Shown here: positions 40,883 through 51,949 of the stretch, piece by piece | How positions within the stretch are numbered: the first letter of the stretch is position 1 | How the letters are laid out: every line of letters begins with the position of its first letter | From: Geminicoccus roseus DSM 18922 | Lineage (GTDB): Bacteria; Pseudomonadota; Alphaproteobacteria; Geminicoccales; Geminicoccaceae | NCBI RefSeq assembly: GCF_000427665.1 | Contig: NZ_KE386572.1 | Coordinates: 3,782,373 to 3,846,372 of the forward strand | Direction: 5' to 3' | Length of the DNA stretch: 64,000 bases | Translations under genes and position numbers: made by a program | Notes under the pieces: model-generated | Seen by the model: the letters and a program-made list of their open reading frames with translations, nothing else | Database searches by the model: none | What the model was told of the DNA's origin: nothing

Positions 40883-41344
40883 TCAGGCCCCGTCGAGCTC
40901 CAGCTTCATGCCAACATGGCTGGCGACGAAACCCAGGCGTTCATAGAAGCGGTGGGCGTCGTGGCGGCGGGTGTCGGTGGTGAGCTGGACCATCCGGCAG
41001 CCGGCCGCGCGGGCCAGCCCAAGGGCGTGCCCGATCATCTCCTGGCCCAGGCCCTGGCCGCGCCGGTCCCTTGCCACCCGCACCGCCTCGATCTGGCCGC
41101 GGCTGGCGCCGGCGCGGCCGAGGCCGTGGATGACGGTCAGCTGCATGCAGCCGACCACCCGGCCACCCTCCACCGCCACGAGCATGCGGTTGCCGTCCTG
41201 CCGCTCCATCGCCCGGAACGCCTCCCGGTATACCGAAAGCTGGGCGTCGCCCGCGTTCTCCCGGCTGCGGCCCAGATCGTCGTCGGCCAGCAGCGCCACG
41301 ATTGCCGGCAGGTCGGCCTCGGTGGCGTCCCGAAACTCAGCCAT
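40883..41344 (-). CDS. GNAT-family N-acetyltransferase
   Basis: 153 residues. 'FRDATEADLPAIVALLADDD' begins a GNAT fold, with the acetyl-CoA loop 'RVARDRRGQGLGQEMIGHAL' and 'DAHRFYERLGFVASHVGM' at the end. Close to the PhnO/AAC-like groups. It is the last gene of the urease-type operon, overlapping ureD by 8 nt, so it may act on the same pathway or simply be cotranscribed. Substrate unknown. Confidence 0.85.
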   Translation of the reverse strand: MAEFRDATEADLPAIVALLADDDLGRSRENAGDAQLSVYREAFRAMERQDGNRMLVAVEGGRVVGCMQLTVIHGLGRAGASRGQIEAVRVARDRRGQGLGQEMIGHALGLARAAGCRMVQLTTDTRRHDAHRFYERLGFVASHVGMKLELDGA

Positions 41345-42143
41345 GCAGCATTCCCCGCAGCAGCGGCACCAGCGCCGCCTGCGCCTGCACCAGCGCACCG
41401 CCATCCCTGGCCAGCATCCGCACCAGCAGCCCGCTGCCCTGGCGCAGCGGCGTCGCTCCGCCGGCCACTTCCTGTCCGTCAAGCACCGCCTGGATCTCCC
41501 TGCACCGGCGGCGCGCGTCCGCCGCATCGATCGTCCCGACCAGCAGGAGGCTGCCCAGCGCCTGCTCCGCCCCGGTCACCCCCGGCAGGCCGTCCAGCAC
41601 CGTCTGGCCCAAGGCCTCCATGCGGTCCAGCATCACCAGCCGCCCGTCCGGCCGCTCCAGCCGGAGCGTCCCCCGGAACCGCTCGAACGACCCGCCGCTC
41701 CGGGCCGGACCGTGCATCATGAACCCGTCGGCCACCAGCAGGCGCGCCTCCGGGTCGGCCACCACCCGGACCTCCTGGTCCAGCCGGCTGTCCGGGAACA
41801 GGATCAGCGGCAGCGGCAGGAACTCCAGCCGGCTGCCGGCCTCGGCCACCAGCTCGACCCGCTGGCTGCTCGATCCGCCGTCGCGCATGGCATGGACCAC
41901 CATCGCCGCCGGCATCTCGACCCGCAGCTCGGCGCCCGCCAGCGCCGCGACCCGCTGGTTGATCCGGTCGCCCGAAAAGATCCCGCCCGAGGTGGACTGG
42001 ATGAACACGCGGGCGCAGGCCGGCCGCCCGCGCACGTCCCAGAGCGGCGCCTGCACCGAGAACGGGTGCCGCACCCGCCGTCCGGCCAGCACGGTCCGGC
42101 CATCCGAACCGAGCCGGAAGGAAAGGTCGAGGGCAGGGGTCAT
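41337..42143 (-). CDS. ureD: urease accessory protein UreD
   Basis: 268 residues. '[20 protein letters not shown]' corresponds to the conserved UreD 'GG..-GD' region, and '[20 protein letters not shown]' is another UreD hallmark. UreD forms the scaffold with UreF and UreG and channels nickel to the apo-enzyme. It overlaps ureG by ATGA. Confidence 0.9.
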
Positions 42144-42772
42144 GCGTCGCGGAACAGGACCGCATGGCAGATCGCGTCCGCGACCTGGTCGACGCCCTCG
42201 CCCTTGCGGCAGTTGGTGGCTAGGATCGGCCGGCCGCCGCGCACGGCCTTTGCCTCGGCCAGCATCCGCTCCAGGTCGACGCCGACATGGGCGTGCAGGT
42301 CGACCTTGTTGATGACCAGCAGGTCGCATTGCAGGATGCCCGGTCCGCGCTTGCGGGGAATGTCGTCGCCCCCGGCCACGTCGATCACGAACAGCCAGTA
42401 GTCGACCAGGTCCAGGGAGAAGGTCGAGGCCAGGTTGTCGCCGCCGCTCTCGATCAGGATCAGCTCCAGGCCGGGAAAGTCCCGGTCCAGGCTGTCGGCG
42501 GCCTCCATGTTGAGGGTCGGGTCCTCGCGGATCACCGTGTGCGGGCAGGCGCCGGCCTCCACCGCCAGGATCCGCGCCGGGTCGAGCAGGTCGGCGCGGC
42601 GCAGCCGCTCGGCATCCTCGTGGGTCACGAGGTCGTTGGTGATCACCGCAAGATCGACGCCGCGCTGGAGCAGGCGCGGGATCAGTGCCTCCAGGAGCGC
42701 CGTCTTGCCCGATCCCACCGGGCCGCCGATCCCGACCCTGGCGGCACCCCGGCCCATCTCCTGGCCGCTCAT
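42140..42772 (-). CDS. ureG: urease accessory GTPase UreG
   Basis: 210 residues. P-loop '[20 protein letters not shown]' near residue 15, the nickel-binding Cys-Pro-His in '[14 protein letters not shown]', '[14 protein letters not shown]' and '[13 protein letters not shown]' are all intact. The SIMIBI GTPase delivers Ni2+ and drives carbamylation of the active-site lysine. Both flanks are ATGA overlaps. Confidence 0.96.
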
Positions 42773-44475
42773 CGCAGCATGTAGCGGCGGTTGAGCGGCA
42801 CCCTCCTTGCCGGCTCGCACATCAGGAGCCTGCCGTCGGCGCGCACCTCGAAGGTCTGCGGGTCGACCTCGATCTTCGGCATCGCGTCGTTGCGCAGCAT
42901 GTGCTTCTTGCCGAGCGCCCGCAGCGGCTTGATCGCCAGGATCGGCTTCTCCACGCCGAGCTTCCTCTGCACGTCGGCCTCGATCGCCAGCTTCGAGGCG
43001 AAGGTCACGCCCAGGTTCAGGGGCGAGCGCCCATAGGCGCCCCACATCGGCCGCTGCACGATCGGCTCCGAATCGATCTGGCTGGCATTGCCGTCGCCCA
43101 TCGCCGCCCAGGCGATGATGCCGCTCTTGATCACCATCCAGGGCTTGGCCCCGAACGAAGCGCGCGGCCACAGCACCAGGTCGGCCATCTTGCCGGGCTC
43201 GATCGAGCCGACATGGTCGTCCATGCCCGAGGCGATCGCCGGGTTGATCGTGTATTTCGCGATGTAGCGCTTGATCCGCTCGTTGTCGGCGCGGGCGGTG
43301 GTCTCCTCGGGCAGCCGGCCGACCCGCTCCTTCATGATGCTGGCCAGCTGCCAGCACTTGGCGACGTTCTCGGCCAGCCGGCCCATGCCCTGGGTGTCGG
43401 TGGCGAAGATCGAGATCGCCCCCATGTCGTGCAGGAAGTCCTCGGCCGCCATGCTCTGCGCACGCACACGGGATTCCGCGAACGCCAGGTCCTCGGGCAG
43501 GCGCCAGTTCATCATGTGGGCCAGCATGGTCATCGGCAGGCCCTCGTTCAGCGCGTAGGCGGTGAACGGGTTGGTCGGGTTGGTCGAGGACGGCAGCACG
43601 TTGGCGTGGCTGTTGACCACCAGCAGGTCGGGGGCATGGCCGCCGCCCGCACCCTCCACGTGGTACATGTGGATGGTCCGCCCGCCGATCGAGCGCAGCG
43701 TGTCCTCGCAATAGCCGTATTCGTTGATCGTGTCGGTGTGCAGGTTGACCTGGAAGTCGTGGCGGTCCGCCGCGGTCAGGCTGCCGTCGATCACCGCCGG
43801 CTGGGCGCCCAGGTCCTCGTGGATCTTCACCCCCAGGCAGCCGCCCGCCACCGATTCCTCCACCGCGCCCGGATCGGAGCAGCCCCGTCCCAGGAAGCCG
43901 AAATTGAGCGGGAAGGCGTCGCAGGCCTGGATCATCTGGCCGACGATGTTGGGCCCGGCGCAGCTCGTGTCGAAATGGGGGCCCGGCGACATCCCGATCA
44001 TGGTGGTGCAGCCGCCGGCCAGCGCATGCTCCCATTGCTGCGGGCAAAGGAAATGCGCGTGCGCCTCGATGGCGCCGGCGGTGCAGATGAACATGTCGCC
44101 GTGGATCACGGTGGTGTTCGGCCCGCAGCGCAGGGCCGGGTCGACCCCGTCCATGATGTCCGGGTTGCCGGCCTTGCCCACGCCCACGATCCTGCCATCG
44201 CGGATGCCGATGTCGGCCTTCACGATGCCGATCACCGCGTCGATGATGGTGGCATTGTGGATCACGGTGTCGAGCGCGCCCGACGCGTAGGTCCCGGTGG
44301 TCTGGAAGCCTTCGCCGTCGCGCATCGACTTGCCGGCGCCGGTGGTCAGCTCCTCGCCATAGACCGTGAAGTCCTTCTCGATCTCGGCCAGGAGCTCGGT
44401 ATCGCCCAGGCGCACCATGTCGCCGGTGGTGGGGCCGTAGACCTCGGCATAGTGACGTCGGCTGAGGACCGCCAT
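42769..44475 (-). CDS. divergent urease alpha subunit-like hydrolase
   Basis: 568 residues, full UreC length. All nickel ligands of classical urease are present: His139 and His141 ('[10 protein letters not shown]'), carbamylated Lys217 with His219 ('GVKIHEDLG'), His246 ('VNLHTDTI'), His272 ('[13 protein letters not shown]') and Asp360 ('ATDTQGMG'). General acid His320 and Arg336 are kept. The mobile flap differs: the usual Cys-His-His reads Ala319-His320-Met321, and Ala363 is Gly. The loop at 162-174 is shorter than in Klebsiella urease. The enzyme is therefore likely nickel-dependent, but either an atypical urease or one for another substrate. Operon ureE-F-AB-C-G-D. Confidence 0.9.
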
Positions 44476-44509: not shown

Positions 44510-45208
44510 TCAGGCGCCGCGATAGTTCTGGGCGCGCGCCAGGGCCAGCGCCGCCTGGCGGCTGTCCTCCGTGCGGGTGGTCCCGTTCACCAGCCCGGCC
44601 TGGCCGAACACCAGGCCCTGGCCGCCGATCGACACCAGCTCCACCGACTTGCGCAGGCCCGGCTCGAACCGCACGCCCTGGCCGGACGGCACGTCCAGCC
44701 GCATCCCGAACGCTTTGGCCCGGTCGAACTCCAGGGCGCGGTTGGTTTCGAAGAAATGGGCGTGGCTGCGCACCTGGATGTCGCGGTCGCCGGTGTTGAC
44801 CACCTCGACCGTCACCTTGGCCCGGCCGGCATTGACCTCGATGTCCTCGTCCGGGGTGATGATCTCGCCGGCGGCCCGGTGCTCGGCGACCGGCTCCTGG
44901 CCTGGGCCGACCGGGCGGAACACGATCACCATCTTGGTGCCTTCCTCGAAATCGGCCTCCACCGAGACCATCTCGATCATCGCCGCGACACCCGGCATCA
45001 CGTCGTCGGTGCTGAGCAGCTGGCCGGCCATGTCGACGATCGCCGCGTACTCCATGCCTGCCCGGGCAGCCAGCAGCATCTCGTCGGCGATCAGCGCCAC
45101 CGCCTCGGGATGGGAGAGCCGGATGCCGCGCGCCTTGTGCCGCCTGGCGAACTCCGCGGCGGTGAAGATCCACAGCCGCTCCATTTCGGTCGGGGTGAGG
45201 TTCATCAT
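44510..45208 (-). CDS. fused urease gamma-beta subunit (UreA-UreB)
   Basis: 232 residues. Residues 1-100 are the gamma part ('[20 protein letters not shown]', '[15 protein letters not shown]', 'STDDVMPGV'). Residues 110-225 are the beta part ('[20 protein letters not shown]', '[20 protein letters not shown]', '[17 protein letters not shown]'). Separate genes are usual in proteobacteria; fusion is known from Helicobacter and some actinobacteria. The gamma half is more diverged than the beta half. The trimer with UreC would form the enzyme. It sits 34 nt upstream of ureC. Confidence 0.92.
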
Positions 45209-45240: not shown

Positions 45241-45918
45241 TCAATTGGAGAACAGCCGCAGGTCCTGCCCGGCATGGCGCATCATCGCGATCTCGGCGGC
45301 CGGGGTGAAGGCGTGGATCTGGTCCAGGGCAGGCAAGGGGCGTGCCGCCAGTTCGGCGATCAGCGGCCGCAGCTGGCCGATCGCCCGCTGCGCGTCCAGG
45401 TGGCTGGCCAGCCCCAGGCGGATGGCGGCGGTGCAGAATGCCGTCGCCATGGCGTGGGCCGCCACCGCCAGCGCCTGGTCCCGCGCCAGCCCGACGCCTG
45501 CCAGCACCATGCCCTGCACCACCGGGACATGGCCGTGCGCCTGGTCCGCCTGCACCTTGGCGCGCAGCGCCTGGGCGCCCGCGGTGCCGAGCCTGGCATG
45601 CACGCCCAGCAGCGCGTTGCCGGCGCGCCTGGAGCCTTCCCTGGCCGCGGCGGCGGGCGTCGCGGCATCGGTGAGATCGTCCAGCGCCACTAGCCCGTCC
45701 AGGTCGCCCGCCAGATCGTGCGCGTGCGCGATCACCACCCGGTCGAAGCTGCTCCAGCGATGCCGGAACTGCCCCTCGATGAAGCCGGCCAGGTCCCGCC
45801 TCGCCACCAGCCGGTCGGCCAGCAGGCCTTCCAGTCCCCAGGAGAACGCGAACCCGCCGCTCGGGAACTGGCTGTCGCCGTGCTGCAGCGCCGCCAGCAG
45901 TGCTGCGATCTCAGCCAT
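45241..45918 (-). CDS. ureF: urease accessory protein UreF
   Basis: 225 residues, all-helical. 'LQHGDSQFPSGGFAFSWGLE' is the conserved UreF N-terminus and 'AAEIAMMRHAGQDLRLFSN' its C-terminal end. UreF acts as the GTPase-checking partner in the UreDFG complex. The start at 45918 overlaps ureE by 8 nt. Confidence 0.9.
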   Translation of the reverse strand: MAEIAALLAALQHGDSQFPSGGFAFSWGLEGLLADRLVARRDLAGFIEGQFRHRWSSFDRVVIAHAHDLAGDLDGLVALDDLTDAATPAAAAREGSRRAGNALLGVHARLGTAGAQALRAKVQADQAHGHVPVVQGMVLAGVGLARDQALAVAAHAMATAFCTAAIRLGLASHLDAQRAIGQLRPLIAELAARPLPALDQIHAFTPAAEIAMMRHAGQDLRLFSN

Positions 45919-46366
45919 CGACGACCGCCACCCGGCCGGCCGCCAGATGGTCCTCGATCCGGGCGAGATAGCGCTCCTTCGGCACATCCATGGCGACCAG
46001 CAGCAGCCCCTCGCTGAAGCGGACCCGCCAGTGCAGGTTGCCGGCCAGATAGCCCAGCTCCAGCGCGAAGCCCGGGGCCGGGCGCAGCTTCAGCCACTCT
46101 TCCTGGCCGACCTTCACCACGATGGCGCGTTCGTCGTCGAGGAGCAGCACCGCCCCGTCGAACAGGGCCGTGTCGCGCGGCAGCATCACGGCGCAGTCGG
46201 TGCCGCGGTCGGTAGTCGCCCGGAAGCGGCGGCGGGGCAGGTCCGTCACCGGGACCGACAGGACCTCCAGCCGGCAGTCATGGGCCAGGTGATGGAGGCG
46301 GTGTCCGAGGGCGGGGTCGGCCCGGTCGCCGATGATCCGCTCGAGGCGGCAGAGCTGCTCGGTCAT
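45911..46366 (-). CDS. ureE: urease accessory nickel chaperone UreE
   Basis: 151 residues with an N-terminal peptide-binding domain ('RRRFRATTDRGTDCAVMLPR') and a ferredoxin-like metal domain ('LELGYLAGNLHWRVRFSEGL'), in which the conserved central His is retained. The C-terminal His-rich tail of Klebsiella-type UreE is absent, as in many species. It is the first gene of the operon and donates nickel to UreG. Confidence 0.85.
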   Translation of the reverse strand: MTEQLCRLERIIGDRADPALGHRLHHLAHDCRLEVLSVPVTDLPRRRFRATTDRGTDCAVMLPRDTALFDGAVLLLDDERAIVVKVGQEEWLKLRPAPGFALELGYLAGNLHWRVRFSEGLLLVAMDVPKERYLARIEDHLAAGRVAVVDG

Positions 46367-46518
46367 TCCGGCGCGGTCGCTCGATGGGAGGAGGGCGCTT
46401 CCGGCTTAATCCCGATCCAGGGCCTGTTCAACGACGTTGACCCGGGCGGCCGGACCGCCCAGTTCGCTTGGAAGGAGGCTGTTCTCGGCCGCGATCCACG
46501 CCACGGGAGGCACCACAC

Positions 46519-46971
46519 ATGCTGCGTCGGACCTTCATTGCCTCGCCCGCGTTCGCAGCAATGGCGTCGCTGCCGCTGGCCAGGACCATGCTCGCGGGCA
46601 GGCCGGCCCAGGCCCAGGCCCGCGAGTTGGAGGGGAGCTGGATCGCCACCGAGGCGCTGCGCGCGGGCCTGGCCGCGCCGGACCTGGTCGGGCACGAGCT
46701 CGCCCTGGGCGGCGACCGCTTCCAGATCTCGAAGGCCGGCATCGTCCAGTATGGCGGGACCTACACCGCCGATCCGATCCCGAACCCGCCCTGGATGGAT
46801 CTCGAGCACCAGATGGGCGAGGTGGTGGGCATGACCTGGTCGGGGATCTACCGCCTGGAGATCGACCACCTGATCCTGTGCCTGAACGCCGCCGACCCGA
46901 ATGCGGTCCGCCCGTCGGACTTCGTGGCCGGGTCCGGCTACGTGCTGATCACCTACAGAGCCTTGCGCTGA
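46519..46971 (+). CDS. Tat-type secreted TIGR03067-like protein
   Basis: 150 residues. The N-terminus 'MLRRTFIASPAFAAMASLPL' has a twin-arginine motif and ends in an AQA-type cleavage region near residue 34. The mature part starts 'LEGSWIATEALRAG' and ends 'IDHLILCLNAADPNAVRPSD', which resembles the TIGR03067 family, better known from planctomycetes and of unknown function. GGGAGG lies 8 nt before the ATG. Divergent from the urease-type operon. Confidence 0.65.
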   Translation: MLRRTFIASPAFAAMASLPLARTMLAGRPAQAQARELEGSWIATEALRAGLAAPDLVGHELALGGDRFQISKAGIVQYGGTYTADPIPNPPWMDLEHQMGEVVGMTWSGIYRLEIDHLILCLNAADPNAVRPSDFVAGSGYVLITYRALR

Positions 46972-47248: not shown

Positions 47249-47996
47249 ATGGCCGACGACATCATCCTGTCCGCAACCGGGCTGACCAAGGAATTCAAGG
47301 GGTTCGTCGCGGTCAACGATGTCGACCTGAAGGTCGCCCGCGGCTCGATCCACGCGCTGATCGGCCCGAACGGCGCCGGCAAGACCACCTGCTTCAACCT
47401 GCTCACCAAGTTCCTGCAGCCGACCCGCGGCGCGATCGTCTACCAGGGCCGCGACATCACCCGGATGCAGCCGGCCGACATCGCGCGGCTGGGCCTGGTT
47501 CGCTCCTTCCAGATCTCGGCGGTGTTCCCGCACATGACCGCCCTGGAAAACGTGCGGATCGCCCTGCAGCGCCAGCGCGGCGACAGCTTCGACTTCTGGC
47601 GCTCCGAACGGGTCCTGACCCGGTTCGACGACGCGGCTGCCGCCCTCTTGGACGATGTCGGCCTCGCCAGCTTCGCCGCGACCTCCGCCGGCGAGCTGCC
47701 CTATGGCCGCAAGCGCGCCCTGGAGATCGCCACCACCCTGGCGCTCGAGCCCGAGATGCTCCTGCTCGACGAGCCGATGGCCGGCATGGGCCACGAGGAT
47801 GTCGACCGCATCGCCGAGCTGATCCGGCGGATCGCCCGGACCCGCACCGTGCTGATGGTCGAGCACAATCTCTCGGTGGTGGCCTCCCTGTCGGACCGCA
47901 TCACCGTGCTGGCGCGCGGCAAGGTCCTGGCGGAGGGCGACTATCCCACGGTTTCCGCCAATCCCGACGTCATCGACGCCTATATCGGAGCCGGTC

Positions 47997-48004
<8 letters not shown>
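47249..48004 (+). CDS. HAAT ABC transporter ATPase (LivG-like)
   Basis: 251 residues. Walker A 'LIGPNGAGKTTCFNLLTKFL' (about 36-55), then 'SFQISAVFPHMTALENVRIA', typical of LivG, and Walker B 'PEMLLLDEPMAGMGHEDVDR'. The ABC signature is degenerate: 'LPYGRKRALEIA' in place of LSGGQ, usual for LivG-type ATPases. First gene of a five-gene importer for a branched-chain-amino-acid-like or other small polar substrate. It overlaps the next ATPase by 8 nt. Confidence 0.93.
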
Positions 48005-48740
<736 letters not shown>

Positions 48741-48795: not shown

Positions 48796-49995
48796 ATGAG
48801 GCTTGGCAAATTCGTGCTCGCGGCCATGGCGACGGCGCTGCTCTCCGGCACCGCGCTGGCGGAGACCAACGTCAAGATTGGCGTGCTGAACGACCGTTCC
48901 GGCGTCTATGCCGACCTGTCCGGCGAGGGCTCGGTGGTGGCCGCGCGCATGGCGGTGGAAGACTTCGACGCAGAGGCGAAGGGGATCAACGTCGAGATCG
49001 TCTCGGCCGACCACCAGAACAAGCCGGACGTCGCGTCCACCATCGCCCGGCAGTGGTACGACCAGGACGGCGTCGACATGATCGTCGACGTGCCGACCTC
49101 CTCCGCGGCGCTGGCGGTGAGCGACATCACCCGCGAGAAGAACAAGGTGTTCGTGAACTCAGGGGCGGCCACCTCCGACCTGACCGGGTCGAAATGCTCG
49201 CCCAACACCGTCCACTGGACCTACGACACCTACGCCCTGGCCCACGGCACCGGCGGCGCCATGGTCGAGGCCGGCGGCAAGACCTGGTTCTTCCTGACCG
49301 CGGACTACGCCTTCGGCCATGCGCTGGAGCGCGACACCACCGCGGTGGTCGAGGCCGCCGGCGGCGAGGTCCTGGGCAGCGTCCGCCATCCGTTCCCCGG
49401 CACCGACTTCTCCTCCTTCCTGCTCCAGGCCCAGGCGTCCGGCTCCGACGTGATCGGCCTGGCCAATGCCGGCGGCGACACCATCAACTCCATCAAGCAG
49501 GCCTCCGAGTTCGGGATCACCCAGGCCGGGCAGTCCCTGGCCGGCCTGCTGGTGTTCCTCACCGACGTCCACGCGCTGGGCCTGCAGACCGCCCAGGGCC
49601 TGGTGCTGACCGAGAGCTTCTACTGGGACCTGAACGACGAGACCCGCGCCTGGTCCGAGCGCTTCGCTGAAGCCCATGACGGCGACATGCCGACCATGGT
49701 GCAGGCGGGCGTCTATGCCGGCGTGCTCCACTATCTCAAGGCGGTGGAAGCGGCCGGCGGCACCGATGCCGAGCAGGTGGTCGCCAAGATGAAGGAGATG
49801 CCGACCGACGATCCCCTGTTTGGCCAGGGCTCGATCCGCGAGGACGGCCGCAAGCTCCACGACATGTACCTGTTCCGGGTGAAGACCCCCGAGCAGTCGG
49901 AAGGCCCCTGGGATTATTACGAGCTGGTCGCGACCATTCCGCCGGAGAAGGCGTGGCGGCCCCTGGAAGAGGGCGGCTGCGAGTTCGTGAAGTAG
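48796..49995 (+). CDS. HAAT ABC transporter substrate-binding protein
   Basis: 399 residues with a signal peptide ('FVLAAMATALLSGTALAE', cleavage about 22). The type I periplasmic fold is shown by 'VKIGVLNDRSGVYADLSGEG', 'DVPTSSAALAVSDITREKNK' and 'FLTADYAFGHALERDTTAVV'. It lacks the typical UrtA urea-binding N-terminus, so the ligand cannot be called urea. It lies between the ATPase and permease genes, an order seen in several aromatic- or amide-uptake Liv-type systems. Confidence 0.88.
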   Translation: MRLGKFVLAAMATALLSGTALAETNVKIGVLNDRSGVYADLSGEGSVVAARMAVEDFDAEAKGINVEIVSADHQNKPDVASTIARQWYDQDGVDMIVDVPTSSAALAVSDITREKNKVFVNSGAATSDLTGSKCSPNTVHWTYDTYALAHGTGGAMVEAGGKTWFFLTADYAFGHALERDTTAVVEAAGGEVLGSVRHPFPGTDFSSFLLQAQASGSDVIGLANAGGDTINSIKQASEFGITQAGQSLAGLLVFLTDVHALGLQTAQGLVLTESFYWDLNDETRAWSERFAEAHDGDMPTMVQAGVYAGVLHYLKAVEAAGGTDAEQVVAKMKEMPTDDPLFGQGSIREDGRKLHDMYLFRVKTPEQSEGPWDYYELVATIPPEKAWRPLEEGGCEFVK

Positions 49996-50078: not shown

Positions 50079-50966
50079 ATGTTCGAGCTACTGGGTATCC
50101 CGCCGCAGGCATTGTTCGGCCAGCTCCTGCTCGGCCTGATCAACGGCTCGTTCTACGCCCTGCTCAGCCTGGGCCTCGCGATCATCTTCGGCCTGCTCAA
50201 CATCATCAACTTCACCCACGGCGCCCAGTACATGATGGGCGCGTTCGTCGCCTGGATGCTGCTGGACTATCTGGGCATCAACTACTGGGTGGCCCTGGTG
50301 CTGGCGCCGGTGGTGGTCGGCATCACCGGCGTGATCATCGAGCGGCTCCTGATCTCCAGGCTCTACCACCTGGACCATCTCTACGGCCTCTTGCTCACCT
50401 TCGGCCTGGCGCTGATCATCCAGGGCCTGTTCCGCAACCAGTACGGCATCTCCGGGCTGCCCTACCAGATCCCGCCGCTGCTCTCGGGCGGGCAGAACCT
50501 GGGCTTCATGTTCCTGCCGAACTATCGCGGCTGGGTGGTGGTGGCGTCGCTGGTGGTCTGCCTCGCCACCTGGTTCGTGATCGAGAAGACCCGGCTTGGC
50601 GCCTATCTGCGCGCCGCCACCGAGAACCCGGTGCTGGTCGGCGCCTTCGGCATCAACGTGCCGCGGCTGATCACCGTCACCTACGGCTTCGGCGTGGGCC
50701 TGGCCGCGTTCGCCGGCGTGCTGGCAGCACCGATCTACTCGGTCAACCCGAACATGGGGGCCGACCTGATCATCGTGGTGTTCGCGGTGGTGGTGATCGG
50801 CGGGATGGGCTCGATCCTGGGCTCGATCGTCACCGGCTTCGGCCTCGGCATCGTCGAGGGGCTGACCCGGGTGTTCTACCCGGAGGGATCGGCGGTGGTG
50901 ATCTTCGTGATCATGGCGATCGTGCTGCTGGTGAAGCCCGCCGGCCTGTTCGGGAGGGCAGCGTGA
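50079..50966 (+). CDS. HAAT ABC transporter permease (LivH-like)
   Basis: 295 residues with about eight membrane helices. 'LGLAIIFGLLNIINFTHGAQ' and 'GLAAFAGVLAAPIYSVNPNM' are LivH hallmarks, and 'RAATENPVLVGAFGINV' is the ATPase coupling loop. Its stop overlaps the LivM-like start by one base. Confidence 0.93.
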   Translation: MFELLGIPPQALFGQLLLGLINGSFYALLSLGLAIIFGLLNIINFTHGAQYMMGAFVAWMLLDYLGINYWVALVLAPVVVGITGVIIERLLISRLYHLDHLYGLLLTFGLALIIQGLFRNQYGISGLPYQIPPLLSGGQNLGFMFLPNYRGWVVVASLVVCLATWFVIEKTRLGAYLRAATENPVLVGAFGINVPRLITVTYGFGVGLAAFAGVLAAPIYSVNPNMGADLIIVVFAVVVIGGMGSILGSIVTGFGLGIVEGLTRVFYPEGSAVVIFVIMAIVLLVKPAGLFGRAA

Positions 50967-51949
50967 TGGCGACCGATTCCCGCGCGGACGCCCCGGGCGC
51001 GCCGGCCCACCCCATCTCCATGGGGATGATGCGCCATCACCTGGTGATCTTCGTGGCCCTGCTGGCCCTGGGCCTGGTCGGCCCGTTCTTCCTCTACCCG
51101 ATCTTCCTGATGAAGATCCTGTGCTTCGCCCTGTTCGCCTGCGCCTTCAACCTGCTGCTGGGCTATGGCGGGCTCCTGTCGTTCGGCCACGCCGCCTTCT
51201 TCGGCTCGGCCAGCTATGTCAGCGCCCATGCCGCCAAGGAATGGGGTCTGAACCCGGAGTTCGCGATCCTGCTCGGCACCGCCGCCGCGGCCGTGCTGGG
51301 GCTGGTGATCGGCGCGCTGGCGATCCGCCGCCAGGGCATCTACTTCGCGATGGTGACGCTGGCCTTCGCCCAGATGGTGTTCTTCTTCTCGGTGCAGGCG
51401 CCGTTCACCGGCGGCGAGGACGGCATCCAGGCGGTGCCGCGCGGCCATCTGTTCGGCCTGCTCGACCTCGGCGCTGACATCAACCTCTATTACGTCGTGC
51501 TGGCGATCGTGTTCGCCGGCCTTTTGCTGATCTACCGGATCATCCACTCGCCGTTCGGCCAGGTGCTGAAGGCGATCCGGGACAACGAGCCGCGCTCGGT
51601 GTCGCTGGGCTACCGGGTCAACCAGTACAAGCTGGCGGTGTTCGTGCTTTCCGCCAGCCTGGCCGGCCTGGCCGGCGCCACCAAGGCCCTGGTGTTCCAG
51701 CTGGCATCGCTCACCGACGTCTACTGGACCATGTCCGGCGAGGTGGTGCTGATGACCCTGCTGGGCGGCATGGGCACCGTGTTCGGCCCCCTGGTGGGTG
51801 CCGCGGTGATCGTCACCATGCAGAACTATTTCGCCACGTTCGGCGCCTGGGTGACGATCATCCAGGGCGTGATCTTCGTGATCAGCGTGCTCCTGTTCCG
51901 CGAAGGCATCGTCGGCGTGCTGGGCAGATGGCTGAAGAAGCCACTTTGA
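50966..51949 (+). CDS. HAAT ABC transporter permease (LivM-like)
   Basis: 327 residues with ten or so hydrophobic segments. 'AFNLLLGYGGLLSFGHAAFF', 'GIYFAMVTLAFAQMVFFF' and 'KAIRDNEPRSVSLGYRV' are LivM motifs. Start ATG 50966 (TGATG with the LivH-like stop) behind GGGAGGG; a GTG one codon earlier is possible. Confidence 0.93.
   Translation: MATDSRADAPGAPAHPISMGMMRHHLVIFVALLALGLVGPFFLYPIFLMKILCFALFACAFNLLLGYGGLLSFGHAAFFGSASYVSAHAAKEWGLNPEFAILLGTAAAAVLGLVIGALAIRRQGIYFAMVTLAFAQMVFFFSVQAPFTGGEDGIQAVPRGHLFGLLDLGADINLYYVVLAIVFAGLLLIYRIIHSPFGQVLKAIRDNEPRSVSLGYRVNQYKLAVFVLSASLAGLAGATKALVFQLASLTDVYWTMSGEVVLMTLLGGMGTVFGPLVGAAVIVTMQNYFATFGAWVTIIQGVIFVISVLLFREGIVGVLGRWLKKPL

Follow-up and report, generated by a model that had tools for sequence, protein, structure and literature searches.

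A urease-like alpha subunit of Geminicoccus roseus DSM 18922 belongs, in our reading, to a distinct clade of urease-family amidohydrolases that serves the breakdown of amides and for which free urea is probably not the main substrate; we give this reading a probability of about 0.55. Its gene lies in a stretch of 64,000 nucleotides of this genome (hereafter the window), and we call it and its close relatives the variant. The clade is functional and separate within the urease family, and it is matured by its own UreD, UreE, UreF and UreG. For the clade the evidence for a role in amide catabolism is good; for the window locus it is indirect. In relatives the variant gene usually stands beside genes for amide-breaking enzymes, so the compound that the enzyme breaks down may not be plain urea.

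Catalytic core, flap and urea contacts of the window protein

The first-pass annotation had given the right coordinates for the variant gene, and we add its strand (minus). The genes of the locus, in window positions, are as follows.

41337..42329, minus strand, ureD (35% identity to the annotated UreD of Pleomorphomonas sp. SM30)
42140..42772, minus strand, ureG (TIGR00101, 240.8 bits, cut-off 204.2)
42769..44475, minus strand, variant ureC, 568 aa (A319, H320, M321, G363, short 167-172 loop; TIGR01792, 740 bits)
44510..45208, minus strand, ureAB fusion (gamma and beta subunits), 232 aa (NF009671, 313.9 bits, cut-off 243)
45241..45987, minus strand, ureF (50% identity to the annotated UreF of Pleomorphomonas sp. 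SM30)
45911..46366, minus strand, ureE (NF009752, 173.5 bits, cut-off 162)
47249..48004, plus strand, ABC ATPase, UrtD/LivG-like (TIGR03411, 227.1 bits, below the UrtD cut-off of 304.1)
47997..48740, plus strand, ABC ATPase, UrtE/LivF-like (TIGR03410, 236.6 bits, below the UrtE cut-off of 285.8)
48796..49995, plus strand, substrate-binding protein of branched-chain amino acid type, not UrtA (UrtA model 68.4 bits, cut-off 492.75)
50079..50966, plus strand, permease, UrtB/LivH-like (TIGR03409, 191.9 bits, below the UrtB cut-off of 250.3)
50999..51949, plus strand, start approximate, permease, UrtC/LivM-like (TIGR03408, 135.1 bits, below the UrtC cut-off of 296.2)

The genome has 5,698,370 bases in 5 contigs, contig C5 accounting for 5,421,495 of them. 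With its 740 bits the variant passes the urease UreC equivalog model (TIGR01792, cut-off 680), on which the ordinary UreC of G. roseus scores 985. From the translation and the alignments, we observed that the metal ligands H139, H141, K217, H246, H272 and D360 are kept, as are H219, H320 and R336. Positions 319, 321 and 363 are changed to Ala, Met and Gly, M322 was also read, and the loop that follows GPH167 has four residues fewer than its counterpart in ordinary UreC. Apart from M322, these are the same kept and changed residues, and the same shortened loop, that the first-pass annotation had read. Ala319 aligns with Cys592 of jack bean urease. The flap Cys319-His320-His321 of urease alpha subunits thus reads A319 H320 M321 in the window; the urease of Yersinia enterocolitica has Asn at 321, so this triad does not strictly define ureases.

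In the urease of Sporosarcina pasteurii, according to PMC7433671, urea is held at its amide nitrogens by the backbone carbonyls of Ala170 and Ala366, and on flap closure His323 is locked by Asp224 and Arg339. Given the offset of three between the two numberings (320/323), S. pasteurii residues 170, 366, 323, 224 and 339 correspond to 167, 363, 320, 221 and 336 here. Neither contact position is alanine in the window protein, which has His167 and Gly363. Since the contacts are made by backbone carbonyls, replacement of the alanines is by itself compatible with urea as a substrate.

From the ligands and the accessory genes we infer that the metal is nickel. The AlphaFold model, of good confidence as a whole (pLDDT 86, pTM 0.92), resembles a urease alpha chain in structure comparison (TM 0.93); the short loop is weakly modelled, block 161-170 having a mean of only 59, and we therefore claim no pocket shape from it.

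A complete urease operon and its neighbouring transporter

The fused UreAB subunits and the maturation genes for UreD, UreE, UreF and UreG all stand beside the window variant, as at a urease locus, and the ATG of ureG overlaps the stop of the variant ureC. For ureF and ureD, an NCBIfam search at 1e-5 gave no match. A TIGR03067-domain protein of 167 aa is encoded at window positions 46468-46971, between ureE and the transporter genes.

The branched-chain-type transporter adjoining the variant is conserved in three Geminicoccus species, and the best solved match of its binding protein is 3i09 (444 bits). A urea transporter as neighbour of the variant was considered and rejected, because the adjoining transporter passes none of the five UrtABCDE equivalog cut-offs. 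Beside the ordinary urease of G. roseus (C5:3203500-3223000), in contrast, all five are passed by an adjoining UrtABCDE.

The variant forms a clade of its own

We aligned 99 distinct UreC sequences from genome contigs, plasmids and further genomes, namely 20 variant, 16 intermediate and 63 ordinary ones. Variants were defined by >59% identity to the window protein and intermediates by Gly363, whose presence in 16/16 intermediates is therefore by construction. Fragments with an aligned span of <=540 residues were left out (earlier passes used 480), and a plasmid-borne member from Rhizobium rhododendri (68.8%) was excluded from every count. The tree comprised 59 rows, the ordinary sequences being thinned from 63 to 23 and the columns of the loop, the flap and 359-366 excluded. 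In this tree all 20 variants group together as a single clade (SH-aLRT 100, stem 0.62), and the ordinary rows form a group of their own (SH-aLRT 100). The intermediates sit between the two groups but need two changes. With actinobacterial sequences included, the variant lies outside the ordinary proteobacterial UreC lineage, in agreement with the departure from ordinary urease that the first-pass annotation had proposed.

The members are mostly Alphaproteobacteria, with a few Actinobacteria. We found variants in three Geminicoccus species, one other Geminicoccaceae genome and further alphaproteobacterial genomes, in Pleomorphomonas sp. SM30 and Rhizobium tumorigenes, and, among actinobacteria, in a Nocardioidaceae metagenome-assembled genome (MAG) and two more genomes of that class. 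They are infrequent: 3/31 genomes of the family carry one. With scoring limited to the three best first-look candidates of each genome, the counts were 4/385 in the class (the window's own genome included), 10/397 in one rhizobial order and 3/394 in the actinobacterial class (the search centre included). In the class of a Paenalcaligenes genome, searched with the same best three candidates per genome, 0/369 reached variant identity, the two matches listed having 56-57%. A literature search, mostly without subscription journals and without bioRxiv preprints, returned no paper on the variant clade.

Coordinated changes under normal constraint

The changes seen in the window protein are not chance. 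Residue 319 is Ala in 12, Cys in 6 and Gly in 2 of the 20 variants; it is Cys in 63/63 ordinary sequences. At 321 the clade has Gln (6), Met (5), Ile (4), Arg (2), Ala, Leu and Asn (1 each) and never the His found in 63/63 ordinary sequences, and at 363 it has Gly in 20/20 against Ala in 63/63. All 20 variants share the short loop, Ala140 between two metal-ligand histidines, Gly363 and the loss of His321. A47, E55, E137, A140, F168, G312, P314 and N370 are likewise fixed in their new state in 20/20, and Trp222 has become Phe or Leu. In total, 54 positions conserved in >=90% of ordinary rows are changed in >=90% of variants, I140A and A363G among them. The marks of a urease alpha subunit (metal ligands, carbamylated-lysine position, His320, Arg336, Asp221) are present in 20/20 clade rows, as are Asp360 and Gly277, and the lock D221/H320/R336 is whole. 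The catalytic core has thus been left as it was, while its surroundings have been remodelled in a coordinated way.

Ala319 is not a signature of the clade, since Cys is kept in 6/20 members; the defining changes are the loss of His321 together with those of pocket and loop, not C319A. The idea that C319A alone signals new chemistry was rejected on the same count, and the first-pass annotation had put too much weight on this cysteine.

We then compared constraint by dN/dS (Nei-Gojobori) between G. roseus and G. flavidas, and obtained 0.118 for the variant ureC and 0.110 for the ordinary ureC; equality with the value for the ordinary urease in this pair of species indicates that the variant gene is under normal constraint. 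UreAB, UreD, UreE, UreF and UreG are all present beside 17/20 variants. The three loci short of the full set are one near a contig end (L112), one at which neither UreE nor UreG was found (L110) and one with a UreE below the length limit of this count (L035). Thus the intact enzyme with a preserved metal site and its own maturation genes, as first annotated, stands. A frame or assembly artefact was rejected because the variant is intact in three Geminicoccus species, and a pseudogene because of the purifying selection.

These data bear on two alternatives. The variant could be an ordinary urease copy whose flap drifted under relaxed constraint, its role unchanged. The variability of 319 (A/C/G) and 321 (M/Q/I/R/A/L/N), which changed 5 and 9 times on the tree, and the Asn321 of Y. 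enterocolitica agree with such drift, but the dN/dS equals that of the ordinary copy, 20/20 members share new residues at many other positions and the gene context is unlike that of ordinary loci; we regard drift as improbable. It is far less credible still that the variant is a decaying or inactive paralogue or a regulatory pseudo-enzyme, given ligands intact in 20/20, purifying selection and accessory genes alongside, even though second operons can be silent, as passages of PMC2492869 describe for ureC2/ureB2 of Brucella suis.

Amide hydrolases accompany the variant

Within 8.5 kb, a gene for an amide hydrolase from any of four families is present at 16/18 variant loci and at 1/23 ordinary loci (Fisher p = 2e-8), this p-value, like the one below, being optimistic since the families were chosen after inspection of the variant loci. 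The hydrolase models were built from genes at variant loci, and loci whose flanks, counted within 8.5 kb on each side, came to <12 kb were excluded, which removed two of the 20 variants (L034, L112). At the 16 loci the hydrolase is of the amidase-signature family in 12, FmdA with asparaginase-like in 3 and dimethylformamidase-like in 1. A second dimethylformamidase-like protein adjoins one of the 12, whose amidase match is weak (93 bits). Dimethylformamidase-like large subunits adjoin variant operons at L035:4305-6740 and L118:12794-15376. After near relatives were collapsed, 11/12 variant loci still had an amide hydrolase (p = 3e-7).

Of the intermediate loci, 1/6 has an amide hydrolase within 8.5 kb, and this locus neighbours the variant locus of its own genome. 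Among ordinary loci of variant-bearing genomes, the window's genome included, the count is 0/15 (L173, L174 and L189 being excluded for short flanks). In Pfam scans of variant neighbours, the dimethylformamidase-like genes were the exception; no further partner common to the loci emerged.

The frequent gene order is binding protein, LivHMGF, amidase, a small ABM-domain protein and ureEF-AB-C-G-D. The nearest NCBIfam model of the partner amidase is PRK07235 (827 bits, cut-off 545), and its nearest solved relative is the amidase 3a1k (472 bits). The two exceptions among the variant loci are the window locus and that of G. harenae, where no amide hydrolase was found within 8.5 kb. G. roseus has, however, an unlinked partner-like operon (C5:829.9-837.6 kb), separated from the variant by about 3 Mb, and G. 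flavidas, also variant-bearing, has the same module in the same order. Compared with the module beside the variant in other genomes, the identities of these two species' copies are 58% for the binding protein, 57-62% for LivHMGF, 65% for the amidase and 45-53% for the ABM protein.

The first-pass annotation had suggested an altered substrate. This gains indirect support from the replacement of both alanines that contact the urea amide nitrogens and from the company of amide hydrolases, and the substrate itself we can still only infer; for the guanidine-type compound once suggested we found no evidence.

Coexistence with ordinary urease

An ordinary urease is also encoded in 16/17 variant genomes, the sole exception being the Nocardioidaceae MAG, which has the variant only; G. 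roseus has both too. In the rhizobial order, an ordinary urease occurs in 10/10 variant genomes, whereas any urease occurs in 94/150 genomes (p about 0.009); larger genomes could be part of the reason for this excess. In two genomes (G453, G494), by contrast, the only full-length urease listed scores in the intermediate range. In another genome (G015) variant, intermediate and ordinary UreC are all present, the first two 17 kb apart. A third ureC of one genome, at G557:C1:32224-33921, scores 743 bits, between the usual classes. At L126:9105-10892 (genome G293) an intermediate-type UreC has Val319 and is followed by open frames of 1235 and 1797 codons; no UreD, UreE, UreF or UreG was seen beside this locus.

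Could the variant nevertheless be a genuine urease that differs in kinetics, pH range or inhibitor sensitivity and clears urea that the neighbouring amidases release from ureido compounds or acylureas? We consider this possible, though less probable than a non-urea substrate. All catalytic residues are kept, the urease equivalog cut-off and the structural comparison agree with a urease, and a change of kinetics with urea could account for the sequence. Klebsiella urease lacking the flap cysteine (C319A) retains activity. The binding protein of the usual partner operon matches the solved urea-binding protein 7s6e with 175 bits but AmiC with 86, and this closer resemblance to urea-binding proteins favours a urea-like ligand. 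As for the flap, the titles of PDB entries indicate that Klebsiella C319 variants fold and that C319A binds acetohydroxamate (1fwe), which also lessens the importance that the first-pass annotation gave to Cys319.

Against this, both urea-NH2 contact positions are replaced, the transporter beside the window variant is not UrtABCDE, and a second plain urease would be redundant in the 16/17 genomes that already have an ordinary one. The phenotypes of the genus may point the same way: both urease types are present in G. roseus and G. flavidas, and in G. harenae the variant is found with an identical flap; PMC9659566 reports that G. flavidas and G. roseus hydrolyse urea and that G. harenae does not. 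The authors of that species description suspect urease gene copy number. If G. harenae is without an ordinary urease, the variant gives no urease phenotype.

Proposed mechanism and implications

Our preferred reading is still that of a hydrolase whose main substrate is probably an amide other than free urea. More specifically, and with odds that we judge evenly balanced, the variant would be a dinickel hydrolase whose physiological substrate is not urea but a primary amide, or else a urea that is substituted or acylated; it would work alongside amide hydrolases of four unrelated families in an undescribed nitrogen-scavenging route. The bridging hydroxide would attack the carbonyl of a small amide or of a substituted or acylated urea, and His320 would help the amine to leave. 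The rebuilt wall and flap face may admit a substituent that ordinary urease excludes, and the adjoining amide hydrolase may process the imported compound too, either ahead of the variant's step or following it. Going by the title of a paper of 1980, ordinary urease already acts on formamide, acetamide and N-methylurea, so the chemical step needed would be modest.

If true, this would be a natural change of substrate in a family that is commonly regarded as urea-specific, and a genome with both an ordinary and a variant copy would offer a ready comparison of the residues that make a urease. It would also be a caution against equating every ureC in genomes or metagenomes with a capacity for urea hydrolysis, because the copies of 16/17 variant genomes pass the standard UreC model (the Nocardioidaceae copy falls just under it). 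Some clade members lack the flap Cys, the target of thiol-directed urease inhibitors.

Comparison with known systems

Compared with the urease alpha subunits of Klebsiella aerogenes (UreC), S. pasteurii and jack bean, the variant has the same fold, ligands, His320, Arg336 and Asp221, and the same set of subunits and maturation genes. It differs by A167H, W222L, D314P, H312G, C319A, H321M, A363G and I140A and by a loop four residues shorter. In structure alignments its identity to full-length ureases other than that of Ureaplasma is 46-51%.

Brucella ure-2 is described in PMC2492869 as an additional, divergent urease operon in a genome with an active one, a situation like that of the variant; there, UreC2 groups with Yersinia, and disruption of ureC2 or ureB2 in B. 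suis left measurable urease activity unaffected. The intermediate UreC of the Aminobacter plasmid type, with 53-58% identity to the window protein, resembles the variant by its UreAB fusion (in an annotated example), by Gly363 (its definition) and by a loop shorter by 3 or 4 residues. Unlike the variant, it keeps Cys319 in 15/16 and His321 in 14/16, and the Aminobacter copy adjoins UrtB and UrtC over cut-off, with a UrtA-like protein of 404 bits, under the cut-off of 493. In the iron urease UreA2B2 of Helicobacter mustelae, the divergence concerns the metal and the substrate is urea. This enzyme (3qga) is, like the variant, a second urease with complete ligands, and it is a structural match to it; what sets the variant apart from UreA2B2 is that its pocket and its gene context differ from those of an ordinary urease.
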